The notes beneath the pieces are model-generated. The model saw only the letters and a list, made by a program, of their open reading frames with translations, was not told the DNA's origin and made no database searches. This document shows, piece after piece, positions 35,082-37,915 of a stretch of 64,000 nt of DNA. A program made the position numbers and the translations under genes. How positions within the stretch are numbered: the stretch's first letter is position 1; the number at the start of each line of letters is the position of its first letter. The stretch spans positions 3,485,992 through 3,549,991 of the forward strand of contig NZ_CP101322.1 in the NCBI RefSeq assembly GCF_024300625.1, written 5' to 3'. The stretch is from Halovivax gelatinilyticus (GTDB lineage Archaea > Halobacteriota > Halobacteria > Halobacteriales > Natrialbaceae).

Positions 35082-35861
35082 ATGCGAGTCGAACAGCTCG
35101 GTACTGGTGACCCGTCGGTCGCGCTCGTCGGAGGGATCCACGGAGACGAACCCTGCGGCGTCAATGCGATCGATCGACTGCTCGAAACGCGACCGGAGGT
35201 CATCGAACCCGTCAAATTCGTCGTCGCGAACGAACTGGCCATCGAACAGTCGGTTCGATACGTCGAGGAAGACCTGAACAGGGCGTTTCCCGGTGATCCG
35301 GACGGCTCGACACACGAGAGCCGACTCGCCGCACGGCTCGCAGCGGAACTCGAAGGCTGTTACGTCTGCTCGATGCACTCGACGCAAAGCCACGCGAGCC
35401 CCTTCGCAGTGGTCGACGGGCTGACGGGGACGGCGAAGACGATCGGGCCACAGCTACCCGTCTCGTCGCTCGTCGAAACGGGCCCGCTCGCTCAGGGGCG
35501 ACTGTTCACCGGTGCCGAAACGATCGAAGTCGAGTGTGGGCTCCAGGGGACGGAAACGGCGACGGAAAACGCCTATACTCTGGCCCGAGCGTTTCTCACC
35601 GCGACCGGCGTCCTCCCGGGTGAGACGAGTCGGCGACCGCTCCCGGTGTTCCGACTGAACGAGATGATCGCGAAGAAACCGGCCGACCGGTACGAACTAT
35701 TCGTCGACAACTTCGAACGCGTCGAACCCGGACAACCGTTCGCTGCCGCCGACGGCACCGTACAGACGGCCTCGGAGGCGTTTTATCCGGTCCTGATGTC
35801 GCCCAACGGCTACGAGAACGTGTTCGGGTACGCCGCACGCCGGATCGACGTCATCGAGTGA
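35082..35861 (+). CDS. Aspartoacylase/succinylglutamate desuccinylase family metallohydrolase
   Basis: 259 residues of the M14-related AstE/AspA family. Zinc ligands are visible in VGGIHGDEPCG (His, Glu) and in CSMHST (His); the catalytic glutamate is probably in EVECGLQGTE. The C-terminal beta domain (about 175-259) is present. The substrate is unknown; N-acyl amino acids are usual. ATG 35082 was preferred over a GTG five codons earlier. Confidence 0.8.
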   Translation: MRVEQLGTGDPSVALVGGIHGDEPCGVNAIDRLLETRPEVIEPVKFVVANELAIEQSVRYVEEDLNRAFPGDPDGSTHESRLAARLAAELEGCYVCSMHSTQSHASPFAVVDGLTGTAKTIGPQLPVSSLVETGPLAQGRLFTGAETIEVECGLQGTETATENAYTLARAFLTATGVLPGETSRRPLPVFRLNEMIAKKPADRYELFVDNFERVEPGQPFAAADGTVQTASEAFYPVLMSPNGYENVFGYAARRIDVIE

Positions 35862-35982: not shown

Positions 35983-37194
35983 TCACCGAATCGTCGGATC
36001 GGTGGATTCACGAGCCGACGCGAACGCGGTGAGACACTCGACGATGTCGTCCGATCCGTGACTCGCAAGCGGCGTCACCAGCAGCCGATCGGCTGGCTGC
36101 GATCGGTCCGGTGGGCCGGCGACTCTGACGAGGACGTTCGAGTCAGAGAGCGCCCGGACGAGACGCCCGGGTTCGCCACGCCCCTCGACGGGCACAGACA
36201 GGATCTGTGAATCACCGGAGACGCCGTAGCCGATCGACCGAAGCCCCTCTCGGAGGTGGGTCACGTTATCCCAGAGCTGAGCCCGACACGAACCGTGGCG
36301 GGCGACGTGCAACGCTTCACTTGCCGCGGCCGCCGATGGCGGTGAGATCGCACAGAGACGCTCGAAGTCGGACGTGTTGACGATCGTCTCGATCACGTCG
36401 GTGCTCGCGGCGACGTAGCCGCCCTGACTCGCGAGCGCCGTCGAGAGCGAGCCGAGCTGTACGTCGACGTCGGACGGGCAATTTTCTGCCTGAACGATCC
36501 CGCCTCCATCTGCGTACAGCCCGATCGCGTGCGTTTCGTCCACCGCCGTCCAGGCGCCGTACTCCGACGCGAGCGAGACGAATTCTCTCGGGGAACAGGC
36601 CTCCCCGCGTATCGGACAGACGGCCGGGACGACGGCGAGCCAGGATTCGCAACCGTCGGCATCGAGGGCCTCTCGAGCCTGAAATTTCGCTTCCAGCGTG
36701 GAAATCTCCGTTTGATCGTATCTGAGAAGCGTCGAACCGACGCGCTGGGCGATCCCCTCGGCAAACCTGGCGCTGAGGTCGTCGACGAACACGGCGTCGG
36801 GCTGTAAGCCCGCAATCAGCAGTCGATAGGCGTCGCTCCGGTCCGGAAGCGAGAGCGCTCGTTCGGTCTCTGAAACCTCGGCGAGCGTCCGCTCCAGATC
36901 GTGGTGGAGTAACGTATCTCCGAATCGAACGCGACTGGAACAGGCGCCGGTACCAACCGTCCTCGCCGCCCTGGTGGCCGCCTCCTGAATACGGCGATCG
37001 TGTGCCAGGCCGAGATAGTTCTCGGATCCGAAGACGAGCGTTTCCGTTCCGTCGAGGACCGGAAGTGATTCGCCGGACGGTTGGGCCCGGTAAACGCGTT
37101 CGGCGATACGGTCAGACGGTCTCAATCGATGGGTCTCCCGACCGCTCCGTAGCTCGCGCACCCGTTCGCTGGGGTCGAATCCCCGGTCCACCAT
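35983..37194 (-). CDS. BioF/KBL-like fold-type I protein lacking PLP lysine
   Basis: 403 residues, related to alpha-oxoamine synthases (8-amino-7-oxononanoate synthase, 2-amino-3-ketobutyrate ligase). SENYLGL (57-63), GTGACSSR (81-88) and VDETHAIG (218-225) match the family. The lysine that forms the Schiff base, in TLSKALxxxGGY, is replaced by Thr252 in SLSTALASQGGY. Without that lysine normal PLP catalysis is not expected. No biotin genes lie nearby. It converges on the metallohydrolase gene. Confidence 0.8.
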   Translation of the reverse strand: MVDRGFDPSERVRELRSGRETHRLRPSDRIAERVYRAQPSGESLPVLDGTETLVFGSENYLGLAHDRRIQEAATRAARTVGTGACSSRVRFGDTLLHHDLERTLAEVSETERALSLPDRSDAYRLLIAGLQPDAVFVDDLSARFAEGIAQRVGSTLLRYDQTEISTLEAKFQAREALDADGCESWLAVVPAVCPIRGEACSPREFVSLASEYGAWTAVDETHAIGLYADGGGIVQAENCPSDVDVQLGSLSTALASQGGYVAASTDVIETIVNTSDFERLCAISPPSAAAASEALHVARHGSCRAQLWDNVTHLREGLRSIGYGVSGDSQILSVPVEGRGEPGRLVRALSDSNVLVRVAGPPDRSQPADRLLVTPLASHGSDDIVECLTAFASARESTDPTIR

Positions 37195-37369
37195 CTGAGC
37201 GGACCGTGACACTCCCGTGCTATGACTCTCTCGGTTTCCTCGTCCCGACAGTCTGCCAGAAGGAAGTACTCGAAATATGTACGCAAACATCGAACAGATA
37301 TTCGTAAAATTAGAAAAATTGTTCCGGTTGTGTAATGCTTAAAGGGCTGCATCGCGTACCGTCGAACGT

Positions 37370-37915
37370 ATGAGCACCCAACGAACAGTCAGACAGCCAG
37401 CCGACGCTATCGAAGAAAACGGACTCCGGATCGACACGGATCGCGCCGAACAGATCGTCGACGCGCTCAACACCGAACTGGCGAACGCGTACGTCCTCTA
37501 CCACCAGCTCAAAAAACACCACTGGGTGGTCGAGGGGGCCGAATTCTTGCCGATCCACGAGTTCACCGAAGAGGCGTACGAACACGCCGAGGAAGGAGCG
37601 GACGTCATCGCAGAGCGCGCGGGGGCGCTCGGGGGCGTTCCAGTCTCGGGACCGACCGCACTCGAACGTCGCGCAACCATCGAATTCGAGGGAGAAGACG
37701 TCTACGACGTCCGAACGATGCTCGAAAACGACCTCGAACGCTACGGAGACGTCATCGAATCGATGCGCGGTAGCATCGAACTCACCGAGAATCTCGGCGA
37801 TTACGCCACGTCCGAGATCCTCCGTGAGATTCTCGTCGTCTTCGAAGAAGACGCGCACCACTTCGAACACTACCTCGAAGACGACACGCTGGTGCTCGAA
37901 GAAGCGACGCACTGA
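37370..37915 (+). CDS. dpsA: DpsA, ferritin-like DNA-protecting protein
   Basis: 181 residues of the haloarchaeal Dps family, a 12-subunit cage that oxidises and stores iron. Ferroxidase-region residues are seen in YVLYHQLKKHHWVVEG (about 46-61) and HEFTEEAYEHAEEGADVIAER (cut: HEFTEEAYEHAEEGAD). The C-terminus has EEDAHHFEHYLEDD. CTTAAAG at 37338-37344 is the TATA box, with A+T-rich sequence (37305-37325) before it where an iron or redox regulator might bind. Confidence 0.93.
   Translation: MSTQRTVRQPADAIEENGLRIDTDRAEQIVDALNTELANAYVLYHQLKKHHWVVEGAEFLPIHEFTEEAYEHAEEGADVIAERAGALGGVPVSGPTALERRATIEFEGEDVYDVRTMLENDLERYGDVIESMRGSIELTENLGDYATSEILREILVVFEEDAHHFEHYLEDDTLVLEEATH

Follow-up and report, generated by a model that had tools for sequence, protein, structure and literature searches.

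Why does a haloarchaeal genome keep an unbroken gene for a BioF-like protein in which threonine stands where the PLP lysine is expected? The gene lies within a 64,000-nucleotide stretch of Halovivax gelatinilyticus DNA (here, the window), on the minus strand at positions 35983–37194, and its frame of 403 amino acids runs open from an ATG at 37194 to a stop at 35983; a further in-frame ATG occurs upstream at 37290, and homologue alignments begin at MVDRGFD. The lysine-site motif reads GSLSTALASQGGY, and the codon at 36439–36441 (ACG, read from 36441 to 36439) specifies Thr252, aligned with the Schiff-base position that is lysine in 58/58 lysine-bearing (Lys-type) orthologues, 20/20 sister-family BioF proteins and 7/7 type-2 BioF proteins. 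The initial annotation had noted both this substitution and the intact frame, and both are borne out. The gene's third-position GC is low (0.73 against a median of 0.84 for Lys-type genes). It is flanked by a convergent AstE/AspA-family gene (35082–35861, plus strand; Pfam PF24827) and a divergent ferritin-like gene (37370–37915, plus strand; PF00210), which also flank the gene of the nearest lysine-less relative (G003); we regard these neighbours as genomic context only, and any functional link to the BioF-like gene as putative.

Open reading frame, profile searches and an AlphaFold2 model together describe this gene as that of a BioF-like pseudoenzyme. By profile the protein belongs to the alpha-oxoamine synthase / fold type I family (Pfam PF00155, E 1.2e-17), and its TIGR00858 score of 151.7 bits falls under the family (equivalog) cut-off of 426.45. 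The model is complete and confident (pLDDT 88.4, pTM 0.88) and resembles solved serine palmitoyltransferase, KBL, ALAS and BioF structures with a TM of about 0.8, though residues 30–42 are mostly of low confidence while the adjoining residues 44–47 are invariant. The type I PLP-enzyme fold is thus predicted to be retained, and very probably the homodimer as well. The initial annotation had called the rest of the fold intact, which stands for the overall fold and for the DETHA, ENYLG and GTGACSS motifs, but not for three others: aligned with its relatives, the protein has degenerate LPDRSDAY and DDLSARFA (36760–36849, minus strand) where FSSGYAAN and DELNHASI are normal, and AVCPIRG (36604–36624, minus strand) in place of SVFSMDG. 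The lysine is therefore not the only change, as had been supposed, for several catalytic motifs have gone together. All four of His142, Thr249, Lys108 and Ser137, invariant in Lys-type BioF, are replaced; from known structures we take these and the other eroded residues to be catalytic.

Similar erosion is seen across 16 lysine-less representatives, where Lys252 is present in 0/16, Thr249 and Lys108 in 3/16 each (0.19) and His142 in 9/16 (0.56), with Ser137 (0.25), Asn273 (0.31) and Arg22 (0.56) also frequently lost. Other parts of the active site are kept. VDETHA (36526–36543, minus strand) includes Asp219 and His222, which presumably hold the PLP ring in the oxoamine synthase family and persist in 15/16 and at least 15/16 representatives, respectively, and ALASQGGY (36415–36438, minus strand), directly after the lost lysine, is present in nearly all lysine-less proteins. 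No conserved new lysine that might act as a substitute appears among the invariant columns of the lysine-less alignment. Two lysine-less proteins from Natronosalvus-like genomes (G113, L069 5723–7150; G110, L066 6040–7416) are about 55–75 amino acids longer, the extra length being a Thr/Asn/Asp-rich insertion near residue 359 with the frame open.

The loss of the lysine is recurrent in the Natrialbaceae, the family of the window's genome. Among 125 surveyed genomes of this family, BioF matches were found in 118 and a type-1 orthologue (about 45–52% identical to the window protein) in 116, while G001 and G002 carry a type-2 gene only. The lysine-site residue, read by pattern scan in 113 of the 116 and by alignment in the remaining three (G082, G099, G110), is lysine in 96 and another residue in 20, the latter spread over 10 of 29 genera. 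Threonine is the commonest replacement (12/20: G000, G003, G034, G080, G081, G082, G084 and G110–G114), and the others are methionine (G079, G083), asparagine (G025, G099), alanine (G040, G120), glutamine (G088) and serine (G117). The suggestion that a conserved threonine would mark a real subfamily therefore holds only in part, as threonine predominates but five other residues and at least four origins are involved. Arginine and glutamate never occur at the site though each is one step from AAG, an absence that is no more than suggestive. In a second collection the lysine is absent at 6/71 loci (Halobiforma haloterrestris, Halobiforma nitratireducens, Natronosalvus hydrolyticus, Natrialba swarupiae, Saliphagus infecundisoli and a Natrialbaceae MAG), which appear to coincide with members of the 20 and so serve as confirmation rather than as extra cases. 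An order-wide pattern scan (391 genomes, 162 matching) gave lysine in 50/51 outside-family matches among the matches listed; the sole exception among these (G333) was set aside as a chance match, tblastn having found no BioF or biotin gene in the surrounding stretch. No description of a lysine-less BioF was found in the literature searched; the available part of PMC6138646 deals with archaeal biotin genes, and that of PMC10791800 contains nothing on a lysine-less subunit.

How often the lysine was lost depends on the tree consulted. Monophyly of the lysine-less proteins is rejected on the BioF tree (p-AU 0.0001; 20 lysine-less versus 33 rows), as is a single lysine-less clade on the tree of the neighbouring gene rfcL, which includes 14 of the 20 lysine-less genomes (p 0.0003; 14 versus 41 rows); a clade of 13 without G088 is weakly rejected there (p 0.048). 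The BioF trees, one of them a quick tree, require 4–5 changes, and the rfcL tree, on which the lysine-less rows are scattered, requires 7–8. On a reduced BioF tree 17/20 lysine-less proteins fall on one side of a branch with support 93, so that the losses may be as few as four; because long branches meet in the quick BioF tree, however, the grouping may be false, possibly an effect of long-branch attraction. Given the rejected single clade, the scatter in the rfcL tree and the clustering of G034, G088 and G040 with lysine-bearing relatives in the quick BioF tree, these phylogenies point to at least four losses in the Natrialbaceae, and probably more.

These losses seem to follow, with a lag, the loss or replacement of an ancestral operon ordered bioB-bioU-bioF-bioD, whose bioU-type gene matches NF047886 with an E of 6.7e-99 but at 331 bits against a cut-off of 600. 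In most lysine-less genomes the site has lost bioB, bioU and bioD, and bioF remains in place beside rfcL as an open frame, while the window's genus differs, with the gene elsewhere, between AspA-like and ferritin-like genes in both G000 and G003. In the window's genome bioB survives in frameshifted pieces (L121 8852–9922, minus strand; G000:C1 about 296.9–297.9 kb), the only trace of a biotin operon found there; bioU, bioF2 and bioD were not found beside these remains, and no bioD above cut-off was found in the genome. Similarly, a bioB remnant adjoins the lysine-less gene in G040, and bioU remnants adjoin Lys-type bioF in G036, G037 and G121. Five lysine-less genomes (G003, G079, G082, G083, G088) carry a second operon, bioB-bioU-bioF2-bioD, with an intact type-2 BioF. 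Halobiforma-like genomes (L056/L057, L060/L073, L061/L072) combine a second biotin operon containing a Lys-type BioF with a lysine-less type-1 gene, apparently a replaced pathway. The lag is suggested by genomes that have lost pathway genes and kept the lysine, specifically G017 and G045, which lack bioB and bioD, and G014, G036, G037 and G121, which lack local bioU and bioD. There are exceptions in the other direction, as bioB lies beside the threonine-bearing gene in G034 and elsewhere in the lysine-less genome G120. BioY is present in 117/117 genomes searched (at least 90% complete), and biotin uptake is therefore plausible in all of them. A separate loss of the biotin pathway is seen in G004 (L123 6674–8032), with a full-length bioB and a 73-amino-acid bioU piece and neither bioF nor bioD. 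No newly linked partner gene was found among the neighbours of lysine-less genes; these neighbours (rfcL, succinyl-CoA ligase-type, RuBisCO-like and unknown genes) also flank Lys-type genes. A RuBisCO large-chain family match lies near the biotin operon or a lysine-less bioF in 16 loci (e.g. L062 4514–5764).

Is the lysine-less gene, then, simply not yet broken? Under slow decay, selection would be weak or absent after loss of the biotin pathway, and long branches, a dN/dS above that of Lys-type genes and the absence of the gene from some relatives all fit such a history. Type-1 bioF is missing from three genomes of the window's own genus (G001, G002 and G004) and from G115 and G119, and is thus dispensable for some relatives. 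We estimated dN/dS by NG86 with bootstrap limits, using pairs that share the lysine loss. The values are 0.134 (G080/G081), 0.187 (G110/G113), 0.169 (G079/G083), 0.205 (G080/G082) and, among pairs of G111, G112 and G114, 0.179, 0.180 and 0.198, all seven with upper limits of at most 0.290; the window gene against G003 gives 0.404 (0.307–0.510), and every confidence limit, including this one, is below 1. Close Lys-type pairs range over 0.02–0.28, and since the lysine-less values are about twice these, and highest in the window's genus, constraint on the lysine-less proteins is relaxed but real. Neutral drift at the observed dS would have produced 4 to 41 stops per pair, where none is seen, and the BioF-like frame has stayed open in the very genome that carries a frameshifted bioB and has lost bioU, bioF2 and bioD. 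Catalytic residues have been lost while selection on the protein continues, as expected of a pseudoenzyme that selection keeps. The initial annotation's preference for a pseudoenzyme over a decaying gene is upheld by this selection, with dN/dS well below 1, and by the 20 family genomes without the lysine, and we consider slow decay unlikely.

Of the alternatives, the least improbable, if still doubtful, is that the protein remains an enzyme, binding PLP non-covalently or catalysing a new lysine-independent reaction. Asp219 and His222 are kept, and a PDB entry that is described as a K265A serine palmitoyltransferase with a bound PLP-myriocin aldimine indicates that a lysine-less member can hold such a ligand. 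Yet the NHAS-motif histidine, Thr249 and Lys108 are often lost as well, and because six different residues fill the lysine site we do not favour the earlier idea that another residue has taken over. Far less probable is an inactive subunit of the SPTLC1 type, paired with an active oxoamine synthase; such a lysine-less partner exists in eukaryotic serine palmitoyltransferase, and the type-2 BioF of the five genomes with a second operon might provide the active member. Such pairing is unlikely because no further oxoamine synthase or BioF-like gene was found at E<=1e-3 in the window's genome, nor was one found in the other lysine-less genomes without the type-2 operon. Finally, a sequencing or assembly error, which the initial annotation held to be the simplest alternative, would require only one base (AAG to ACG), but its probability is negligible when the nearest relative, at 52% identity, likewise has threonine, other residues occupy the site in many genomes and neighbouring catalytic motifs have changed too.

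We hypothesize instead, with a probability of roughly 0.7, that selection keeps the protein, as a pseudoenzyme, for a function that does not depend on the lysine and that BioF of the Natrialbaceae probably possessed before the lysine was lost. The retention pattern is distinctive. Of the Natrialbaceae genomes with a completeness of 90% or more, bioB is absent from 16; bioF persists in 14/16, and in 12 of those it lacks the PLP lysine. In the sister family (f2), by contrast, bioB is missing from 30/96 genomes and bioF is found in 0/30. The lysine-less proteins also preserve residues particular to the family. Mean retention across the 16 representatives is 0.83 at 138 general BioF sites (those with 95% conservation or more across 58 Lys-type proteins that are conserved among sister-family and type-2 BioF proteins too) against 0.97 at nine Natrialbaceae-specific sites, of which Leu44, Val46, Leu47, Asp99, Glu106, Ser292 and His296 are kept in 16/16; in the window protein alone the contrast (8/9 versus 86/138) is unconvincing. 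Residues 44–47, 99/106 and 292/296 may be contact surfaces of a second function, a hint rather than proof. Retention in the Natrialbaceae and not in the sister family, together with these family-specific residues, suggests that such a function is older than the lysine loss. That it dates from the family's common ancestor, does not depend on biotin synthesis and, once the catalytic centre had eroded, was all that preserved the protein in four or more lineages seems to us slightly better than an even bet.

The sequence of events might have been as follows. The ancestral Natrialbaceae BioF would have had a second, lysine-independent role, perhaps binding a ligand, forming a scaffold or acting as a regulatory partner. 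As biotin synthesis disappeared or passed to a second operon, deletions would have removed bioB, bioU and bioD, and the catalytic residues would have eroded; the BioF protein itself would have been preserved by selection for the second role. The product would be a BioF-derived protein unable to form a Schiff base and lacking several further catalytic residues, and hence presumably unable to synthesize 8-amino-7-oxononanoate. Annotation as BioF would then ascribe to at least 20 genomes a biotin step which, judging from the residues lost, this gene is very unlikely to carry out. The family offers a natural experiment: one enzyme has repeatedly lost its catalytic lysine, at stages of pathway loss that can be recognised, and the protein persists. 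Studying it could bring to light a second function concealed in a textbook biotin enzyme and trace how a pseudoenzyme forms.

Among known systems, SPTLC1/LCB1 of eukaryotic serine palmitoyltransferase is similar in being an oxoamine synthase fold that lacks the PLP lysine and is maintained by selection; it differs in depending on an active partner from its own family, of which no counterpart was found in the window's genome. The eudicot TSB-like pseudoenzyme, a tryptophan synthase beta relative that is reported to retain a role without catalysis after the loss of essential residues (PMC12727527), is likewise a PLP-enzyme relative turned pseudoenzyme, but it belongs to another enzyme family and its partner is known. 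Haloarchaeal BioF itself (TIGR00858), including that of the Natrialbaceae, is about 45–50% identical to the window protein, which is its orthologue and shares with it the fold and the DEHA, GTGxxSR and ALASQGGY motifs; in contrast, the window protein lacks the Schiff-base lysine, many of its catalytic residues are eroded and no biotin operon surrounds it, while most other lysine-less genomes hold the gene at the ancestral operon site. The type-2 BioF encoded in the bioB-bioU-bioF2-bioD operon of some relatives belongs to the same BioF family, at about 41% identity, and differs in that its lysine and all of its catalytic motifs are present.
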